DNA from: a virus
Length of the DNA: 24,206 bases
IMG/VR virus record: IMGVR_UViG_3300020021_000421
Coordinates: 1 to 24,206 of that record
Reading direction: 5' to 3' (one strand)
The notes under the pieces are model-generated. The model saw nothing but the letters and a program-made list of their open reading frames with translations. It had not been told where the DNA came from and did no database searches. Shown in pieces: positions 1 through 24,206 of this stretch. The position numbers and the translations under genes are program-made. Every line of letters begins with the position of its first letter. The first letter of the stretch is position 1.

Positions 1-354
1 TGGATGATGAACGACAGCTCGATCCTCACGCTGCGCCTGGCGAAGGACGGTCAGGGTCGGTACCTCTGGCCGGAGATGGGCAACGTGCAGAACGGGCAGC
101 CGGTGCAGCTCGCCGGGTACGGAGTCGTGCCCAACAACGACATGCCCGCGATGGCCGCGAGCGCCGTGTGGTCAACTTTCGGCGATCACCGCTACTACAA
201 GATCCGCCGCATCAAGGGCATCACGATCGTGCGCATCAACGAGCTCTACGTGGAGTCCGGCCAGGTCGGCTTCCTCGCGTTCCAGAGTGCCGATGGCGGC
301 TACGCGAATCCGGGTCAGGACCCGATCAAGGGTCTGCAGAACAGCGCGACGTAG
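1..354 (+). CDS. HK97-fold major capsid protein, C-terminal part (5' truncated by window)
   Basis: This is the end of a phage major capsid protein that forms the icosahedral shell. The reading frame is open from base 1 (the first codon is Trp), so the visible Met at base 4 is internal and the gene starts outside the window. Seen features match the C-terminal part of the HK97 family: a WMMN segment, then LAKDGQGRYLW, a GYGVVPNNDMP turn, and a closing strand region with FGDHRYYKIRR, GITIVRINE and a GFLAFQSADGG tail. The HK97 A-domain normally ends with such a 'y...gqvgf.af.r.dg' block. About 117 residues remain, roughly a third of a typical mature capsid subunit. The neighbours (a small capsid-associated gene, then neck genes) agree with this identity. 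Confidence 0.9.
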   Translation, partial: WMMNDSSILTLRLAKDGQGRYLWPEMGNVQNGQPVQLAGYGVVPNNDMPAMAASAVWSTFGDHRYYKIRRIKGITIVRINELYVESGQVGFLAFQSADGGYANPGQDPIKGLQNSAT

Positions 355-405: not shown

Positions 406-831
406 ATGGAAGCACCCGGATACCTGAGCGACAACTTCAAGGTCACGGTCGACGATGCCCAGGGCTCAGCTGGGACGGAATTCGATTCGACGATTCTGGA
501 CATGACCGGCTTCGACTCGGTCCTGTTCGTCGTGAAGCTCGGCACTTCGAATGCCGGCAACTTCGCGAAGGCACAGGAAGACAGCGTGATCGGATTCGGC
601 GGCGTGCAGGACCTGCTCGGCACCAAGTCGGCAGGACAGAAGACGCTGCTCGTCGACGTCCAGCGCCCGGTGAAGCAGTTCGTGCGCTGCGCGGTCATCC
701 GCGCCGGTGCGAACACGACCGTCGATTCGGTCGTCGCGATCCAGTACAACGCGCGCAATCTGCCGATCGTGCAGGCGGCGACGGTTGCGCTCGCGCAGGC
801 GATGGCGCCTGCCGAAGGCGCAGTCGCGTAA
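406..831 (+). CDS. capsid-associated virion protein (possible head decoration protein)
   Basis: A 141-residue protein directly after the capsid gene. It starts at ATG with GAGGG at 394-398 as ribosome binding site. The body is acidic to neutral and beta-rich, with LDMTGFDSVLFVVKLGT, a GVQDLLGT turn, a VDVQRPVKQFVRCAV strand and VDSVVAIQYNAR, ending in an Ala-rich tail. This pattern resembles small proteins often encoded just after the capsid gene in siphoviruses, which I remember as a family of unknown or decoration-type function. It has no signal peptide or membrane segment, unlike the next genes. Its role in the capsid is inferred from position. It could also be a head-completion or scaffold-like accessory. 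Confidence 0.6.
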   Translation: MEAPGYLSDNFKVTVDDAQGSAGTEFDSTILDMTGFDSVLFVVKLGTSNAGNFAKAQEDSVIGFGGVQDLLGTKSAGQKTLLVDVQRPVKQFVRCAVIRAGANTTVDSVVAIQYNARNLPIVQAATVALAQAMAPAEGAVA

Positions 832-918: not shown

Positions 919-1587
919 ATGCGGAAAATTCTTGTCGCATCGGTGACCGCGGCGCTTGTGGCCGCCTGTCTGGCGACGACCGCGCCAGCCCGAGCTTTTG
1001 CTCAGAACGTCGCCTGCTTCTTCGATCAGGGCGGCGCAGGCTTCCACGCGGGTAACGGCTGCACCATCTCGATCGAGTCTGGCGGCACGCTCGCTGTCAA
1101 GACGCCGCTGTATCTCGGTGGCAACGGCGCGCCTGGCGGCGCCGGCGTCGATGGCCTTCTGGCAAAGACGGTCACCGCGATCGCCAACAACACGGCGACC
1201 GACGTCCTGACGGTCACGGTCCCGAACGCGGCACACTCGGCCACGATCCCGATCATCATCAACGCCACGCTCGGTGCCGGCGGTGCCGTCGGTGCGAACG
1301 AGTGCACCGCGACCGCCTACGGACAGATCGTCCTCACGCGCACGGCTGGTCTGGCGACGGTTGCCACCGCGACCACGCTGGCGGACACGGGCTCGGCCTG
1401 CGTCGCCGGCGCGACGACCGTCACGCTGGCGTACAGCGTCACGTCGATGACCGGTGCGAACAGCGCCACCCAGACCTTCACGGTGCAGGTGACGATCGCG
1501 CGCGGCGGCGGCTCGAGCACGAACCACGTCGCCGTGATCCAGGCGGACATTCTCAACGCGAACGCCTCCGGAGTGACGGTGTCGTAA
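919..1587 (+). CDS. exported beta-rich phage protein with N-terminal signal peptide
   Basis: The start is set at ATG 919 because GAAGGAG at 902-908 precedes it and because translation from there begins with a textbook signal sequence (MRKILVASVTAALVAAC...). An upstream in-frame Met at 850 would bury the signal. Two exits are possible: signal peptidase I after AFA28, or a lipobox VAAC with Cys17. The mature part (about 195 residues) is rich in Gly, Ala, Thr and Val with alternating beta strands, a Gly-rich stretch (GGNGAPGGAGVDG) and a C-terminal region (TFTVQVTIARGG...HVAVIQADILNA) like trimeric phage fibre or decoration domains. Cys residues in the mature part could form disulfides after export. 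I do not recognise a named family. It may be a virion protein, or a lysogenic-conversion or exclusion factor. Confidence 0.65.
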   Translation: MRKILVASVTAALVAACLATTAPARAFAQNVACFFDQGGAGFHAGNGCTISIESGGTLAVKTPLYLGGNGAPGGAGVDGLLAKTVTAIANNTATDVLTVTVPNAAHSATIPIIINATLGAGGAVGANECTATAYGQIVLTRTAGLATVATATTLADTGSACVAGATTVTLAYSVTSMTGANSATQTFTVQVTIARGGGSSTNHVAVIQADILNANASGVTVS

Positions 1588-1883
1588 TGCTCATCATCAT
1601 GCGCGGCAGCGTCTCAGGTTTCCACGGCTCGCTGAAGTACGGCGATGTCGTCGACGTCGATCAGGCGCATGGCGAGGCCTGGATCGCTGACGGCCTCGCG
1701 GAAGCGCACGCCGCCGACGCGACGGATCCCATCCGCTGGCAGGATCCAGTAACCATCTACGGCGTTGACCTCGCCGGCGAGGCGCCGGCGGCCGCAGGTG
1801 CTCACGCCGAGGCGGACGAGAAGCCGGCAGGCTCACCGACGGACGAGCTCGCGTCGTCGAAGACCGGTGAGTCTCAGGAATGA
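1587..1883 (+). CDS. small phage protein with GDVVDVD...AWI core (paralogue of the gene at 2963)
   Basis: A 98-residue protein whose ATG overlaps the previous stop (TAATG). A second Met at 1599 is an alternative start. The N-terminal half carries KYGDVVDVDQAHGEAWIADGLA, closely echoed by the protein encoded at 2963-3163. This resembles the short phage proteins with a 'G.vvdvp...a..li..Gla' core that often sit between capsid and connector genes and whose function is not known to me. The C-terminal half is low-complexity, rich in Ala, Glu, Asp and Ser, and probably disordered. It lacks a signal peptide, so it stays in the cytoplasm although its neighbours are exported. Confidence 0.6.
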   Translation: MLIIMRGSVSGFHGSLKYGDVVDVDQAHGEAWIADGLAEAHAADATDPIRWQDPVTIYGVDLAGEAPAAAGAHAEADEKPAGSPTDELASSKTGESQE

Positions 1884-2347
1884 CGTCCCGCGATCAGGCC
1901 GATCGTCGGCTGTCCTACGGACTCATCGCGGCCCTGCTCACGGCGTGTTTCTTCGTGGGTCTGGCGCGACAGGTGCGCGCGCAGGACCCGACGACTGGAT
2001 CCCTCGCGAAGGCCAGCGACGCCGTGACGATCTCGCTCGTTGGCATCGCCAGCGAAACGATCCAACTCACGGGCGCGTGGTCGGGAACCGTCGTCTTCGA
2101 AGCCACCGTCGACAACGGAACGAACTGGCAGGCGGTTCCAGTCGCCAACGTCAGCACCGGCGCGCCGATGCTGCAGGCCAACACGAACGGTCTGCAAGTG
2201 ATCCAGAACGCCGGATTTACCGCGGTCCGCGCGAGGGCCGCCACTTGGGGATCCGGGACGGCGACCGTCACATTCACGCGTGGCTTCCTGGGCTTTATCG
2301 CGCCGCCGTGTAACGCGCTGCTGCGCGCGGCTGGCGCGTGCAAGTGA
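1880..2347 (+). CDS. exported protein with virion-type beta-sandwich domain
   Basis: A 155-residue protein starting in an ATGA overlap with the previous gene. The N-terminus has a basic start (MTSRDQADRR) and a hydrophobic core, with a possible lipobox LTAC (Cys23) and a signal peptidase I site VRA|QD (after residue 34). The mature part contains a domain pattern I recognise from phage tail and head proteins: VTISLVGIASETIQLTGAWSG, then VVFEATVDNGTNWQAVPV, then GFTAVRARAATWGSGTATVTF. The general form is 'sv.vqltGtwsGtv.fE.s.Dg..W..v...g..a.RvratawtsGtatv'. Two Cys lie near the C-terminus. A virion-like domain behind an export signal is unexpected, because phage particles assemble in the cytoplasm. 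Confidence 0.68.
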   Translation: MTSRDQADRRLSYGLIAALLTACFFVGLARQVRAQDPTTGSLAKASDAVTISLVGIASETIQLTGAWSGTVVFEATVDNGTNWQAVPVANVSTGAPMLQANTNGLQVIQNAGFTAVRARAATWGSGTATVTFTRGFLGFIAPPCNALLRAAGACK

Positions 2348-2376
2348 TTCGATTCTCTAACAAGAGGGAGATCTCC

Positions 2377-2889
2377 ATGCGCCGTTCTAGTTTGTTCACC
2401 TCGCTCGCGCTCCTCGTCGCCTTCGTCACCACGCTGGCCGTGCGGCCGGCGGCTGCGCAGAACCCGCCGGGGAACGGCAACGGCAACACGGTGCCCGTGC
2501 AGCTGGTCACTGGCTACTGGCCCCTCACGCCGATCAGCGCGACCGGCGCGGTCAACGTGGCGACCGTGCTGACGATTCCGGCGCCGAGCAATCCGAACTT
2601 CTTCAACTACATCTGCTCGCTGGCATTCGAGTTGAACAGCGACGGCACGGGCGGTGCCATCAGCAACCAGGTGTCGACGTCGACCAACTTCAACGCGTTC
2701 GCCGTCAAGGCCAGCTTCCCGGCGACCGTAAGCATTGACTCCGGCATTCAAATCGCGCTGCCGACGCAGACGCCCGGGACGGGCTGCTACAAGAGCGCCG
2801 CGGCCGGCGTCGCGACGACCTTCACGGCACCCGCGTCCTCCGCGCACATCGCGTGGACGTGGTACGCGAGTTACTACCAGGGTCAGTAA
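2377..2889 (+). CDS. small exported protein with signal peptide, function unknown
   Basis: The start is placed at ATG 2377, preceded by AGAGGGAG at 2363-2370. The upstream in-frame start at 2338 would overlap the previous gene and precede the signal. The first 27 residues form a clear Sec signal peptide (MRRSSLFTSLALLVAFVTTLAV...) with cleavage near AAA|QN. The mature part, about 143 residues, begins with a Pro/Gly/Asn-rich stretch (PPGNGNGN), followed by Ser/Thr-rich beta segments and two Cys that may form a disulfide. It ends with AHIAWTWYASYYQGQ. I do not recognise the family. It is the third exported protein in a row and sits just before the second GDVVD-type small gene. Confidence 0.62.
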   Translation: MRRSSLFTSLALLVAFVTTLAVRPAAAQNPPGNGNGNTVPVQLVTGYWPLTPISATGAVNVATVLTIPAPSNPNFFNYICSLAFELNSDGTGGAISNQVSTSTNFNAFAVKASFPATVSIDSGIQIALPTQTPGTGCYKSAAAGVATTFTAPASSAHIAWTWYASYYQGQ

Positions 2890-2962: not shown

Positions 2963-3163
2963 ATGGCCGCCGACAAGAAGCGCACGCTCAGGATCAAGAT
3001 GTTGACCTCCATCGCCGGCCGCACGACCGCGAGCGCGGTCGGCCACGCGACGGGCGACGTCGTCGACATCGACGCCGAGGTCGCGCAGGCCTGGATCGAA
3101 GAAGGCATGGCCACGCTGGTCCGCGACGATCCGAAGCCGGAAAACACCGCCGCCCGCACGTAG
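2963..3163 (+). CDS. small phage protein with GDVVDID...AWI core (paralogue of the gene at 1587)
   Basis: A 66-residue protein. ATG 2963 is chosen because a purine-rich GAGAGCAGAGAG stretch lies just upstream and because the product then has a plausible short form. The upstream in-frame Met lies inside the preceding gene. Its core, GDVVDIDAEVAQAWIEEGMA, matches the 1587 gene product (GDVVDVDQAHGEAWIADGLA) at most positions, so the two are likely duplicates. The basic N-terminus (MAADKKRTLRIKM) and a short charged C-terminus flank the core. Small proteins of this type commonly lie just before the gp6-like connector in siphoviruses; their function is unknown to me. Confidence 0.62.
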   Translation: MAADKKRTLRIKMLTSIAGRTTASAVGHATGDVVDIDAEVAQAWIEEGMATLVRDDPKPENTAART

Positions 3164-3182: not shown

Positions 3183-4088
3183 ATGTACGACCAGTGGCTT
3201 CCGGTACCTTACGGCGGACTTGACGGCTCCAGCAGCCGCCTCCGTGAGGGTCCGCGCTTCTGGCGCGACACGCCGCGTTCCGAGCCGAGAGAGATTACGC
3301 CACCCGCGTTCGAACCCCTGAGCCGCGCTGAAGCCAAGCTCCATCTGCGCACGGGCCTCACCGATGAGGACGCGTGGTTCGACCGGACCATACCGGCCGC
3401 GCGCCGGCAGGTCGAGACCGACACCAACCGGACCTTCGTTCAGACCGTTTGGGAGATGACGTTCGACCAGTTCCCGATCGAGCGCTACATCGAGCTCCCG
3501 CGTCCGCCGCTCGTCAGCGTGGCCAGCCTGTCATCGTTCGACCTGCTGACCGGCCTCGAGACGGTCGTCGATCCATCAACGTACTACCTCGACACGTATT
3601 CGCAGCCGGGGCGCGTGATTCTGGTGCCCGGCAAGATCTGGCCGACGGGCGTCCGCTGGCAGCAGGGCGGCAAAGTGCGTTGGACGGCCGGCTACAGCGG
3701 CGTGGCGCAGGCGATCGCGTCCATCACACGCGTCGGCGCCGTCGCGACCGTGACGACCGTCGCGCCGCACGGCTACGCGAGCAATCAGCAGTTGACCGTG
3801 TTCGGCGCCGACCAGGCCGACTACAACGGCACATTTCAGGTGACCGTCACGGGTGCGGCCACGTTCACCTACGCGGTCGCCAACAACCCGGCGACGCCGG
3901 CGACTGGTGTCCTGACCGTCGCCTCACTGGGCGTCCCATCGCGCTACGTGCATGCGATCGCGCTGCTGCTCGGCCACTGGAACTTCCACCGCGAGGCGGT
4001 CACGAGCGGCGCCGCGCGCTACTCGCCGGACCTGTACCCGCTCGGCTATGACGCGTTGATCAGCGATCGGATTGTGGGGCTCGGGTAA
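3183..4088 (+). CDS. gp6-like head-tail connector protein with inserted beta domain
   Basis: A 301-residue protein of the HK97 gp6-like connector family, which forms a ring under the portal. Family signs are LSRAEAKLHLR (residues 46-56), the helical DEDAWFDRTIPAARRQVETDTNRTF region, WEMTFDQFP, IELPRPPLVSVASL, TYYLDTYSQPGRVIL, VRWTAGY (residue 171), then VHAIALLLGHWNFHREAV and a C-terminal LGYDALI. Normally the AGY strand runs straight into the VP...AI.LL..HW helix. Here about 70 extra residues (about 179-247) with PHGY, YNGTF and ATFTY motifs interrupt it, explaining the length (301 against roughly 190-230 usual). The first 45 residues are also extra. The gene leads the neck cluster, and its stop overlaps the next start (TAATG). 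Confidence 0.85.
   Translation: MYDQWLPVPYGGLDGSSSRLREGPRFWRDTPRSEPREITPPAFEPLSRAEAKLHLRTGLTDEDAWFDRTIPAARRQVETDTNRTFVQTVWEMTFDQFPIERYIELPRPPLVSVASLSSFDLLTGLETVVDPSTYYLDTYSQPGRVILVPGKIWPTGVRWQQGGKVRWTAGYSGVAQAIASITRVGAVATVTTVAPHGYASNQQLTVFGADQADYNGTFQVTVTGAATFTYAVANNPATPATGVLTVASLGVPSRYVHAIALLLGHWNFHREAVTSGAARYSPDLYPLGYDALISDRIVGLG
3717..3923 (+). repeat. PHG-type beta domain, copy A (inserted in the gp6-like connector)
   Basis: It encodes about 69 residues beginning ASITRVG and containing VATVTTVAPHGY, GADQADYNG and ATFTYAV. Copy B in the next gene shares SITRVG, VAT, TTV, PHG, YNG, VTV and ATF in the same order, about 30 of 54 positions by eye, with clear DNA similarity too. The layout resembles phage segments that automatic pipelines often name E1-FCCH-like; that link is from memory. 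Confidence 0.8.
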
Positions 4089-18199: not shown

Positions 18200-19030
18200 A
18201 TGTATATCAGGCGCACGCGCCCCTGGGACTTTGGACGGCCGACTCGGCCCTATGCGCTCAATAAGGATTGCGCGCAGGCGCAGGGGCTCGTGGCGTGGTG
18301 GCCGATGGCCGAACTCAACGGTCTCGTGCGTGACTGGTCTGGGAATCTCCTCTCGCTCACGAATAATGCCGCGACACCCTGGAAAGGCGAGCATCCACGC
18401 AGCGGACAGTCGCAGGGGCTCGTCCCAAATTTTACGGCGGCCTCGTCACAGTGGCTCTCTGCCTCTGGGGTGCCGGTCAGCGCGGAGCCGCTCACCCTCG
18501 CCGCGTGGGCATGGATCAACACGGCGGCGAACGCGGAGATCCTCGCGCTCGGCGTGCAGTCCGGGACGGCACGGCATCAACTGATTTTTGACGTGGCGAG
18601 TCACATCGAAGCGAACAGCGTGACAGCAGCGGCCGCCAGTGCATTCGCCGCCACGCCGACCTTCTACACCGACAGCGCGTGGCACCACGCCTGCGGGGTG
18701 TTCTCAGCCTCGAATGCTCGCGCGGCGTATCTGGATGGCACCGGGAAAGGGACCGACACCACGAGCGAAGTCGTCTCAGGGCTGAACCTCACGAGCATCG
18801 GCGCGCGGTATGCCGGTGGTGTGTTGGGAGGCTTTCTCGATGGCAAGGTCAGTGACGCGCGAGTCTACAGCCGCGCGCTGACCGATGAAAACGTCAACGC
18901 GCTCTTCGACCCAGAGACGCGCTGGCAGTTGTACTACCCATTGGGACGCAAGTCGTGGGTATTCGTCGGGCGGGCCGCGAGCGGAAGCTTCGGCGGCGGC
19001 AATGCCTTCCCCGCACTTACCGTCGCGTAG
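18200..19030 (+). CDS. LamG-type (concanavalin A-like) domain virion protein
   Basis: A 276-residue protein with a clear LamG/concanavalin-like jelly-roll: GLVAWWPMAELNGLVRDWSGN at the start, SQWLSASGVPVSAEPLTLAAWAWIN, then the diagnostic SAWHHACGVFSASNARAAYLDG, and LGGFLDGKVSDARVYSRALTDENVNALF. Such domains bind sugars or serve as trimer-capping and adsorption domains in phage tail tips. The basic N-terminus (MYIRRTRPWDFGRPTRP) and a C-terminal WQLYYPLGRKSWVFVGR with a Gly-rich, Pro/Ala end resemble virion-attachment tails of phage LamG proteins. The gene follows the fibre cluster without a gap (TAG then ATG), so a receptor-binding or decoration role is likely. Which glycan is bound cannot be told. 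Confidence 0.82.
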   Translation: MYIRRTRPWDFGRPTRPYALNKDCAQAQGLVAWWPMAELNGLVRDWSGNLLSLTNNAATPWKGEHPRSGQSQGLVPNFTAASSQWLSASGVPVSAEPLTLAAWAWINTAANAEILALGVQSGTARHQLIFDVASHIEANSVTAAAASAFAATPTFYTDSAWHHACGVFSASNARAAYLDGTGKGTDTTSEVVSGLNLTSIGARYAGGVLGGFLDGKVSDARVYSRALTDENVNALFDPETRWQLYYPLGRKSWVFVGRAASGSFGGGNAFPALTVA

Positions 19031-20045: not shown

Positions 20046-20099
20046 GCCGTCTCTGCCGATCGCGCTCGATGCGCGGCGGTGGCGACGGCTTTTTCTTTT
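20046..20099 (+). terminator. intrinsic terminator at the end of the structural-lysis operon
   Basis: GCCGTC (20046-20051) pairs with GACGGC (20084-20089). Inside this, CCG (20056-20058) pairs with CGG (20077-20079) and CGCGC (20061-20065) pairs with GCGCG (20071-20075) over a 5-base loop. A TTTTTCTTTT tract follows directly (20090-20099), the only long T-rich run I noticed in the window. The next gene's ribosome binding site comes right after, at about 20105. It separates the lysis genes from the downstream operon. The stem has internal loops, so strength is uncertain. Confidence 0.65.
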
Positions 20100-20119
20100 C
20101 GGTCAGAAGGAAAAGACAG

Positions 20120-21583
20120 ATGGACGGACACGAGGCGCTCGGAGATCTCGCTCAGGAATTCGAGGAGCAGAGACGGAAGGATTTCAAATGGGACGTCATT
20201 GAATGGGCTCTCGTAGTGGTGGCCTTGTTGTTCCTGACGTGGTGGTGCGCCGGTTGCGCCACGGCGCCGGCGAAGCCCGTCCCGCCGCCAGGACCTCCGC
20301 CTGTGTCGGTTCCCACGCGGCCCTTCGACATCAGCCTGCGTGGTCCGAGCGGACCGATCGCTGGTCAGGTCATCACGGTCAACACGCACGTCTCGCCGGC
20401 TGACAACCACGTCGAGACGACGAACGGCGACGGCTACACCATCTGGACGCTTCAGGATCCGACCGGCGATGCGTCGGTGTACGTGACCGTGGACGGCTAC
20501 CAGCCGTACGACTCCGGGACGGTGCACCTGGTCGACTACGCGGCGCGCGAGCACAACTTCATCGACCTGGAGCCGGCGCAGCCCCCTCTTCCGCCGCCGG
20601 CGAGCCGTCAGGAGATCCTCGATTCGCATGAGAGCTTCCAGGGCGCGGTCCTACACACGGCGCAGTTCGGCGATCTGAACTGGTGGCCGACGGCGTGGGT
20701 GTCACTGAGCGCTGACGATCGCATCGATTCGTATCCGCAGATCGCGTCGTGGGGCGACACGGACATCACCGTCTCGGCGACCTGGGACTATGGCGAAGGC
20801 GGCCAGCCGTACGGCAGCGGCCAGCTCGTGCCGCCCAAGAACTATTTCGCCGGCGCCGACTATGCGAGCGCGGACGTCGTCGGGTTCCGCGCGTCGATCA
20901 AGGACGTCCTCCTGCACCAGGCGGCGAACGGCAAGCCCTTCGTGCCCGTCGTCTTCATGTCGGGCGACAACGGCTTCTCCTACTACATGTGGGCGATGCC
21001 GCTGATCGTCAAGGCGCTGCAGCCGCAGCCGACAGATCCGGTCGACCTCACGACGTACGTGAAGTTGCGCATGTGCTACGACTCGTGCGTCCCAGGATGG
21101 CAACCGCCGTCGCAGATCGATGACGCGATCCTCGCGACGCGCGCCGCGTGTCCGGGCTGCGTCATCGCGCTGGAGTTCTCCAGCGGGTATCCGTGTTGGG
21201 GCGGCGGCGACGGCTGCGGCGACGTGAACTTCAACTCGCCGGCTGGGCAGGCGCTCGACGAAGTCGACTGGGAAGGCAATTCCTGGCCGCCGACGAACTG
21301 GGATCAATACTGGCAAGTCCTCGCGCGGCTCCTCGGGCCGACGTCGAAAGGCGGCACGTACGTGCGGCCGTCGAATCAACCAGCAGACGACGATCCGAGT
21401 CCGCCCTGGTACATGAAGAAGGGCACGCCGCGCGGTCCCTGGGGCGTGCATTGCCTTGAACCCTACACCTATCAATTTGTCCGCGGACAGGTGCCGCTCG
21501 ATCAAGTTCCGGTCGTCTGGCGCACGCTGCGCGCGATGGGCTGCGGGGCGATCGACACGCCGTATCCGGCAGGTGCACGGTGA
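20120..21583 (+). CDS. membrane-anchored or lipoprotein secreted protein with Ig/carboxypeptidase-regulatory-like and enzyme-like domains
   Basis: A 487-residue protein starting at ATG 20120 behind AGAAGGAAAA; a further-upstream in-frame start at 20069 would overlap the terminator. Order: a charged head (1-25), a hydrophobic segment (26-43, WALVVVALLFLTWW) followed by AGC46ATAP, a possible lipoprotein cysteine; a Pro-rich linker (52-63); a beta domain (about 68-150) with GPIAGQVITVNT, TTNGDGYTIW and VYVTVDGYQPYDSGTVHL, like carboxypeptidase-regulatory or PEGA-type domains; a second Pro-rich linker; then about 325 residues with SATWDYGEG, GKPFVPVVFMSGDNGFSYYMW, KLRMCYDSC, GCVIALEFSSGYPCWGGG and DEVDWEGNSW. 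The last part looks like a TIM-barrel hydrolase, perhaps a glycosidase, but no catalytic pair is proven. Many Cys fit an extracytoplasmic fold. Confidence 0.55.
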   Translation: MDGHEALGDLAQEFEEQRRKDFKWDVIEWALVVVALLFLTWWCAGCATAPAKPVPPPGPPPVSVPTRPFDISLRGPSGPIAGQVITVNTHVSPADNHVETTNGDGYTIWTLQDPTGDASVYVTVDGYQPYDSGTVHLVDYAAREHNFIDLEPAQPPLPPPASRQEILDSHESFQGAVLHTAQFGDLNWWPTAWVSLSADDRIDSYPQIASWGDTDITVSATWDYGEGGQPYGSGQLVPPKNYFAGADYASADVVGFRASIKDVLLHQAANGKPFVPVVFMSGDNGFSYYMWAMPLIVKALQPQPTDPVDLTTYVKLRMCYDSCVPGWQPPSQIDDAILATRAACPGCVIALEFSSGYPCWGGGDGCGDVNFNSPAGQALDEVDWEGNSWPPTNWDQYWQVLARLLGPTSKGGTYVRPSNQPADDDPSPPWYMKKGTPRGPWGVHCLEPYTYQFVRGQVPLDQVPVVWRTLRAMGCGAIDTPYPAGAR

Positions 21584-23520: not shown

Positions 23521-23712
23521 ATGGGTGACTTCGAATTCTCCAAGGCCGTCAGTGCCATGCGGGACGAGGAGCTCGAGTGTCCAAAGTGTCACGCGAGCAA
23601 TCTTCGGCCGCCGGCAACACCGAGCGTAGAGATCGACAAGAACGGCCGCGGAACGTGTAACGCCTGCGGCCACGTATGGACCGTGAATCTTTCGCTCAAG
23701 GAGAACCGATGA
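23521..23712 (+). CDS. small zinc-ribbon protein
   Basis: A 63-residue protein; ATG 23521 follows the previous stop by one base, and the upstream in-frame Met lies inside that gene. CPKC (20/23) and CNAC (46/49) make a two-knuckle zinc ribbon separated by 22 residues, with a final GHVW. The N-terminus is acidic (MGDFEFSKAVSAMRDEELE) and the C-terminus is a basic SLKENR. It resembles small phage zinc ribbons and the one at 5115 in spacing but not in flanking sequence. Its partner or target is unknown. The stop overlaps the last gene's start (ATGA). Confidence 0.62.
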   Translation: MGDFEFSKAVSAMRDEELECPKCHASNLRPPATPSVEIDKNGRGTCNACGHVWTVNLSLKENR

Positions 23713-24206
23713 AGAGACTAAGTGTCGTCGTCGCGCTGGCGTGGGTCGTGCTCATCTACGCGCCGCGACTGCACGGGCAGCAAGGTCAACCGCCGACGGT
23801 GGTGCAGCAGGTGCCAGGGGTGATCCAGCCTCCAGCGACCGGCGCACCGAGTCAGCCCGCGATCGCGGTGACGACCGTACCCTCGCCCGCCTCGCCCCAG
23901 AACCCGACTGACCAGATCATCTGGGCGCTGGCGATGTCCTACCTACTACGGTACGTGACGACGAAGCGCTGGCTGTCGTTCCTGACACCCGACGCCACCG
24001 CCCGTGTGAAGGCGATCTGCGGGTTCGTGGTCGCGTTCTGCACCGCGGCTGGGATTCATCTTGCGGTCAACGGGAGTCCATTGGACGGACACGGCGCGAC
24101 GATCACAATTTCAGGTCTGTCGTTCGACGTGTTGAAAGACGTCGGATTCCAGTGGGTCAGTCAACAGGCGTGGTTCGATGCCTTGGTCAAGAAGGTTTCA
24201 GTTTAG
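23709..24206 (+). CDS. holin-like membrane protein with N-terminal signal peptide
   Basis: A 165-residue protein starting at ATG 23709, with AAGGAG just upstream inside the previous gene. A signal peptide is seen (MKRLSVVVALAWVVLIYAPRLHG|QQ), followed by a long Pro/Val/Gln-rich disordered stretch. Two hydrophobic helices come next (QIIWALAMSYLLRYVTT, and VKAICGFVVAFCTAAGIHLAV, split by a basic KRW and charged loop), then a soluble tail ending in SQQAWFDALVKKVSV. The two-span C-terminal half resembles phage holins. A cleavable leader on a holin would be unusual; it would place the N-terminus outside the membrane. A holin role is inferred, and a small inner-membrane anchor for other exported phage proteins is possible. 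Confidence 0.5.
   Translation: MKRLSVVVALAWVVLIYAPRLHGQQGQPPTVVQQVPGVIQPPATGAPSQPAIAVTTVPSPASPQNPTDQIIWALAMSYLLRYVTTKRWLSFLTPDATARVKAICGFVVAFCTAAGIHLAVNGSPLDGHGATITISGLSFDVLKDVGFQWVSQQAWFDALVKKVSV

Follow-up and report, generated by a model that had tools for sequence, protein, structure and literature searches.

The window, by which we mean the whole stretch of DNA analysed here (24,206 bases, IMG/VR record IMGVR_UViG_3300020021_000421), comes from an uncultivated virus, is of linear class and is probably a fragment of a larger genome. Its genes run from the end of the major capsid gene through the connector to the tail genes (Table 1) and are referred to below by their first position. Purine-rich ribosome sites lie upstream of ORFs 919 and 2377, and the first 4 bases of 1880 are shared with the stop end of the preceding gene. 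An earlier note, made from the sequence alone, had described 919, 1880 and 2377 as three consecutive genes between capsid and connector. Their position was borne out, but strict adjacency was not, as the 98-aa signal-less gene 1587 splits the first two. This gene and 2963, both with phrog_2616 matches, flank the predicted exported pair 1880/2377, an arrangement suggestive of a duplicated block.

Table 1. Genes of the head block and the last gene of the window
Positions	Strand	Feature	Evidence
7..354	+	Major capsid protein, HK97 type, C-terminal part, clipped by window edge	Pfam Phage_capsid 1.2e-18; phrog_10 4.4e-15
406..831	+	Small protein next after capsid gene, no signal	Homologues after capsid gene in L110 and L111 (36-39% identity)
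919..1587	+	Exported protein 1 (predicted): signal 919-1002, short slot-protein motif, C-terminal tailspike-type beta-sandwich ~1150-1584	
1587..1883	+	98-aa protein without signal, related to gene 2963	phrog_2616 2.7e-4
1880..2347	+	Exported protein 2 (predicted): signal 1880-1981, XepA/YomS-fold beta-sandwich at residues 34-137, C-terminal cysteine pair	
2377..2889	+	Exported protein 3 (predicted): signal 2377-2457, two cysteines	
2963..3163	+	66-aa protein, same kind as 1587-1883	phrog_2616 2.3e-4; L111 equivalent directly before connector
3183..4088	+	Head-tail adaptor (connector)	phrog_442 9.3e-14; 58% identity to L111
4088..4666	+	Head completion protein	Pfam Phage_HCP 7.3e-11
23709..24206	+	Last window gene, fourth signal-bearing product (cut between ..LHG and QQGQ)	Rule-based scan

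Elsewhere in the window, the connector and head completion proteins share a type of inserted repeat (phrog_9998-like, SITRVG.VAT.TTV.PHG). Within the tail module, 18200-19030 encodes a LamG/concanavalin-type domain (Pfam, 9.6e-15) with no signal. Some 60 residues into the 504-aa product of 20069-21583 lie a hydrophobic segment and what may be a lipobox, WWCAGC; its true start may lie further downstream, as that of a lipoprotein.

Export signals in the head block

For the calling of export signals, a rule of our own for n-, h- and c-regions was employed, in which a cut followed by Q, A, D, E or S earned a small bonus. Among the 31 frames of the window, four were positive: 919, 1880, 2377 and the last gene. 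The called cuts of the three block signals fall after MRKILVASVTAALVAACLATTAPARAFA (919), MTSRDQADRRLSYGLIAALLTACFFVGLARQVRA (1880) and MRRSSLFTSLALLVAFVTTLAVRPAAA (2377), in each case before Q. By this rule, all three products have a positive n-region, a hydrophobic h-region and small residues at -3/-1; no Tat motif could be seen by eye in the three signals. The convincing Sec signals that had been described on all three products were thus recovered (3/3 called), and, with the capsid and connector genes on either side, the earlier observation of exported-type proteins in a head block was confirmed.

As a background, the same rule was positive in 29 of 884 called genes from 83 non-redundant loci. 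From this rate, the chance of three signals among the six complete genes of the block is ~6e-4; the true background is somewhat higher, because the automatic start choice of the background scan lost two of the window's three signals. Signal genes cluster across the 83 loci, with six adjacent pairs against 1.8 expected (p = 0.0025), and they recur in or near the structural blocks of contigs L004, L013, L017, L050, L063, L087 and L114. One call, in L065 (score 3.88), was judged false. A genome scan returned a sole relative, in a MAG labelled Mycobacterium, and the gene of this relative carries no signal.

Finer details proposed for the signals held only in part. The lipobox-like VAAC and LTAC do match a lipobox in two of the three window proteins, but a lipobox was found in none of 19 other signal-bearing proteins. 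The ..AQ ending, which had been thought to extend to the last gene, occurs in three of the four window signals and in many relatives; the last gene, however, has QQ after LHG, not AQ. Q stands at +1 in 15 of 20 called signals, the rule itself being slightly biased towards Q. The signals of the window, L002 and L007 are alike in cut-site style, whereas their sequences are unconserved. No description of signals on head proteins was found in the accessible text of PMC12309495, PMC4128745, PMC6937236, PMC7949094, PMC11924767, PMC6834076, PMC12494034, PMC8812541, PMC1266369 and PMC7296036, which does not imply that none is in print.

Folds and relatives of the three proteins

The mature part of 919 comprises 194 aa and contains cysteines C33, C48, C129 and C161. 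An AlphaFold model placed a beta-sandwich at residues 78-222, with blocks from residue 81 mostly at pLDDT 72-92 (one block at 66) and residues before 74 mostly below 50. Among the fold matches listed, the top one was the C-terminal domain of an Acinetobacter phage tailspike (6c72, Z 10.0, 117 residues, rmsd 2.9), and T4 gp9 was also present (Z 8.5); Foldseek alone gave 5w5p at E = 8e-4. The tailspikes whose C-terminal fold resembles residues 66-222 of 919 are Fri1 gp49, AM24 and APK09 (Z 10.0, 9.1 and 8.7, respectively), and in L020 a 919-homologous domain ends a spike-like protein, the beta-helix part of which was named by eye. Unlike these tailspikes, 919 carries a Sec-type signal, lies beside the capsid gene and lacks a catalytic beta-helix, the model having just a short low-confidence part ahead of the sandwich. 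A weak fold match (Z 6.7) was obtained to WceF of Pantoea stewartii, which is described in the available text of PMC7949094 as an exported bacterial enzyme with a tailspike-like fold that acts on exopolysaccharide; WceF differs from 919 in being bacterial, in its Tat signal and in being an enzyme.

Scans for relatives of 919 found two, and then at least 19 contigs (599 stretches fitted the search pattern). The homologue in L002 and L007 bears a signal and comes immediately after the capsid gene; in the window, the 406 gene stands between the two (genes named by eye and by alignment). A signal-less homologue is located one gene past the capsid gene in L014, L016, L019 and L022 (genes named by eye). 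The domain also ends long fibre- or spike-like proteins, which bear a signal in L003 and L013 and none in L008, L010, L011, L015, L018, L020 and L021.

The virion-type beta-sandwich seen earlier in 1880 was supported by an AlphaFold model from 37 sequences (mean pLDDT 84.5). This model matched the C-terminal domain of XepA at Z 15.5 (101 residues, rmsd 1.8) and YomS at Z 15.2, with the next listed family at 9.9. The relation to XepA (prophage PBSX) and YomS (SPbeta), both of Bacillus subtilis, is by fold alone, because a profile of the 1880 family recovered neither chain among PDB sequences at E up to 1. XepA and YomS form pentamers; the comparison was made with the 1880 monomer only. According to the accessible parts of PMC6834076, XepA is a pentameric product exported during phage development and absent from mature particles; it is reported to be cytotoxic, with dissipation of the proton motive force proposed, whereas its C-terminal domain and YomS, each alone, are not cytotoxic, and a transient place at capsid vertices was also considered by its authors. 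The text available of PMC1266369 lists XepA as a secreted protein that has no signal peptide. Export during phage development would be common to XepA and 1880, for which it is predicted. XepA, however, belongs to a lysis cassette and lacks a signal peptide, while 1880 lies in the head block behind a Sec-type signal, and no sequence similarity between the two was detectable.

With 1880 as the only query, a viral scan gave no match, and phage records gave six weak matches, the best of which was to L004, a spring podovirus (E = 2e-5); a scan with the 1880 family gathered 79 loci. In L004, which is complete and circular, the 1880-type domain is part of an 846-aa signal-bearing protein whose gene is the portal gene's immediate downstream neighbour. 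The three genes that follow, among whose products are a LamG lectin and a pectate-lyase-like protein, have signal-like starts (one rule-called, two by eye), so that four consecutive signal-like genes follow the portal (L004:4404-9904). In L066 and L075, signal-less 1880-type domains are encoded in the interval from the capsid gene to the neck genes (genes named by eye).

For 2377, no relatives were found in the viral scan, among the ORFs of all loci gathered or among PDB sequences, and phage records gave one match at E = 0.6. A link to L056:3817-4314 was dropped (E = 1.5), as was one to L004. Searches against defence families gave no match for the products of 919, 1880 or 2377.

Signal-less counterparts, cysteines and the L114 spike base

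A capsid-fragment scan yielded 27 loci; L026, L027 and most of L117-L136 were considered for gene order only, or left out. L111 has the same gene order as the window, with a capsid fragment 70% and a connector 58% identical: its genes run capsid, 406 homologue (phrog_5707, 4.1e-9), slot X (199 aa), slot Y (127 aa), a small 2963-like gene and connector. Neither slot X nor slot Y of L111 has a signal or a cysteine, and in L110, whose capsid is 78% identical, slot X is likewise without a signal and clipped by the contig end. The N-terminal motif of slot X recurs in L112, L113, L114 and L116 and, weakly, in 919 just past its signal. An HMM built on the slot X N-termini of five contigs found L113 at 7.9e-20 and, as the next match among 10,665 ORFs, window 919 at E = 0.003. 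The latter aligned 23 residues, and its score was reached by none of 2,000 shuffles; beyond the motif, slot X and 919 are only 23% identical. As called by the rule, the same slot thus holds signal-less proteins in relatives (L111, L066, L075, L014 and L022) and predicted signal-bearing ones in the window phage. The slot proteins of related phages seem to stay inside the cell.

Signal-bearing proteins were also compared with signal-less ones by cysteine content. In the window, the three signal proteins have 8 cysteines in 458 mature residues, against 49 in 7,092 in the 27 signal-less frames. In the 1880 family (83 members, 62 non-redundant), two or more cysteines were found in 8/8 signal-bearing and 16/54 signal-less members, and cysteine density was higher in the former (p = 0.0004). 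In the 919 family (21 members, 19 non-redundant, among the matches listed), the five signal-bearing members were richer in cysteine than the other 14 (p = 0.023), a weak test, and the same five and 14 did not differ significantly in having two or more cysteines (p = 0.11). Positives in these family tests exclude the signals read by eye in L050, L056, L017 (middle gene), L004 (two genes) and L041. Pooled over the 83 loci, cysteine density was 1.53 per 100 residues for signal-bearing proteins and 0.72 for signal-less ones. Within loci having both kinds, signal-bearing proteins were the richer in just 12 of 17 (p = 0.028); this, the other cysteine p values and that for the clustering of signal genes are optimistic, because the sequences are related. 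In the 919 alignment, C129 and C161 co-occur in the window, L002, L007 and L013, all signal-bearing (4/6 signal-bearing rows, 0/10 signal-less), with L003 and L017 (signal by eye) being the signal-bearing rows that lack them. Because signal-bearing members are richer in cysteine, export looks real, and the cysteine statistics suggest that exported members may contain disulfides.

In L114, five genes in a row after the connector region have signal-like starts (L114:7838-9417 and on; rule scores 4.1, 5.4, 4.6, 4.75 and 4.6), and the fourth encodes 8 cysteines in its mature part. The first encodes a spike base that belongs to the RCAP_Rcc01079 family (NF048002, 6.5e-27), with the match beginning at residue 24. 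It is 67% identical to a signal-less copy in L116 (93.7 and 80.1 bits for L114 and L116, curated cut-off 28), which starts MADKF where the L114 base reads ..GGVCFA and then ADKF. A good ribosome site precedes the L114 gene, no alternative start codon of the usual kind is present there, and the product contains STRRSFL, which we take to be a Tat-like motif. Because this base scored no more than 4.1 by the rule, which set the cut at residue 17, its signal hangs on our own reading of a cut before ADKF; so read, the signal would be a precise add-on, removal of which restores the start of the L116 copy. Among 50 records, NF048002 gave three matches, with only L114 and L116 above the cut-off, and it gave no match for window 406, 919, 1880 or 2377, which places the three window proteins outside this family. 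Unlike L114, none of the eight isolate phages examined has a signal on its NF048002 base, and 1 of 47 genes in these phages had a rule call of at least 4.5.

In the portions of PMC7296036 available, the bases of RcGTA are described as binding capsid pentamers by their N-termini, with head fibres that bind the host capsule. RcGTA head spikes (base Rcc01079, fibre Rcc01080) thus form a head-surface module, to the base family of which the signal-bearing L114 protein belongs; the RcGTA base is a pentameric jelly-roll, and XepA is a pentamer too. Since RcGTA bases bind capsids, an exported base would make sense if it were still capsid-bound.

Possible roles of the predicted exported proteins

The accepted view is that tailed-phage virions form in the cytoplasm. 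For this phage, the sequence evidence gives good support for the export of virion-type head-surface proteins, though not for any one destination, and actual export in cells appears quite probable. The earlier interpretation stands in part, namely the signals (by rule), the cysteines that accompany them and the virion-type domains with signal-less homologues or counterparts in the slot, while lysogenic conversion, one of its suggestions, became unlikely. An option missed at that time, the fourth, is now placed first, tentatively and at a little less than an even chance: the proteins would be signal-bearing head-surface adhesins, capsid spikes that are exported, oxidised in the periplasm and meet capsids only at lysis. 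The capsid-connector block would house proteins of the head surface, be they spikes, fibres or decoration, which in this phage lineage carry Sec-type signals by the rule. After export, cleavage behind ..A would remove the signal, and disulfides would form in the periplasm; the sandwiches of tailspike and XepA type in these proteins point to binding of glycans or surfaces. Capsids would fill in the cytoplasm, and the periplasm-matured spikes would dock on them at lysis. Docking was ranked first because no other job is known for a spike base; free action came second and a membrane anchor third. If export is granted, docking on virions at lysis appears somewhat the likelier course than free action.

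Free action would mean that the proteins are exported but never join the particle. As free or surface-held adhesins, they would either coat receptors or glycans of the host, which would save progeny from being trapped on debris or block superinfection, or loosen the polysaccharide around the cell; the decoy or masking role suggested earlier would be of this kind and may apply. A known example of an exported receptor blocker is T5 Llp, and the tailspike-type C-terminal fold of 919 would suit such a role, as would the lectin and the pectate-lyase-like protein that L004 is predicted, from signals read by eye, to export beside its 1880-type protein. WceF offers a precedent for an exported enzyme of this fold (PMC7949094, as available), and XepA, the best fold match of 1880, favours a free-acting product in that it is exported and absent from virions in the accessible text of PMC6834076. 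The genes, however, lie in the head block, where relatives have signal-less proteins, no catalytic domain was found in the window proteins, and export of the L114 spike base seems pointless if nothing reaches the capsid; free action, although the main rival, is considered rather unlikely. Another explanation, in which exported sandwich proteins help lysis as XepA may do by acting on the cytoplasmic membrane late in infection, draws on the reported cytotoxicity of XepA and on the 1880 match, which is well above the next listed family. What 1880 matches, however, is the C-terminal domain and YomS, neither of them cytotoxic alone on the available evidence of PMC6834076; there is no sequence match to XepA, and the genes are in the head block rather than beside a lysis cassette. 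A lysis function is a slim prospect.

The remaining alternatives are a use of the N-termini other than export, and lysogenic conversion. Signal-like N-termini could work without export, as an inner-membrane anchor during assembly or as a hydrophobic segment kept in the particle, and membrane-associated assembly had been raised before. It is kept alive by the major head protein of L018 (L018:2211-3284; identical twin L025:5001-6074; phrog_267 1.2e-29, match from residue 62), the N-terminus of which is extended by a signal-like stretch, VKKFIKKISTINLVVLGVVLALYALGICGTADA, with a good ribosome site in front; the next gene also has a signal-like start, and neither gene has one in the related L026. 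A capsid protein can hardly be exported and also form the shell, so that signal-like N-termini may have another use. However, L018 shows no cysteine enrichment and may be a different case. The cysteine pattern of signal-bearing members disfavours an anchor, as does the similar cut-site style of the otherwise unconserved signals of the window, L002 and L007. An anchor was accordingly rated improbable. Lysogenic conversion, by which a prophage would make cell-surface proteins, is in keeping with the signals and surface-type folds, but by position the genes lie inside a late head operon, and the window, itself only a fragment, showed no integration gene; this was rated the most improbable of the explanations.

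A wider claim can be attached to docking at lysis, namely that a group of tailed phages builds two-compartment head spikes, with a shell made in the cytoplasm and spikes from the oxidising periplasm, the signal having been added at the exact start of a virion protein and the two parts being joined at lysis. We regard this as possible but rather doubtful. If virion-type head proteins are routinely exported, there would be either a post-export assembly step or virion-derived adhesins working away from the particle. Either outcome would change the reading of 'structural' genes in environmental phages, and both are directly testable. Parts seemingly made for a virus shell may mature outside the cytoplasm.
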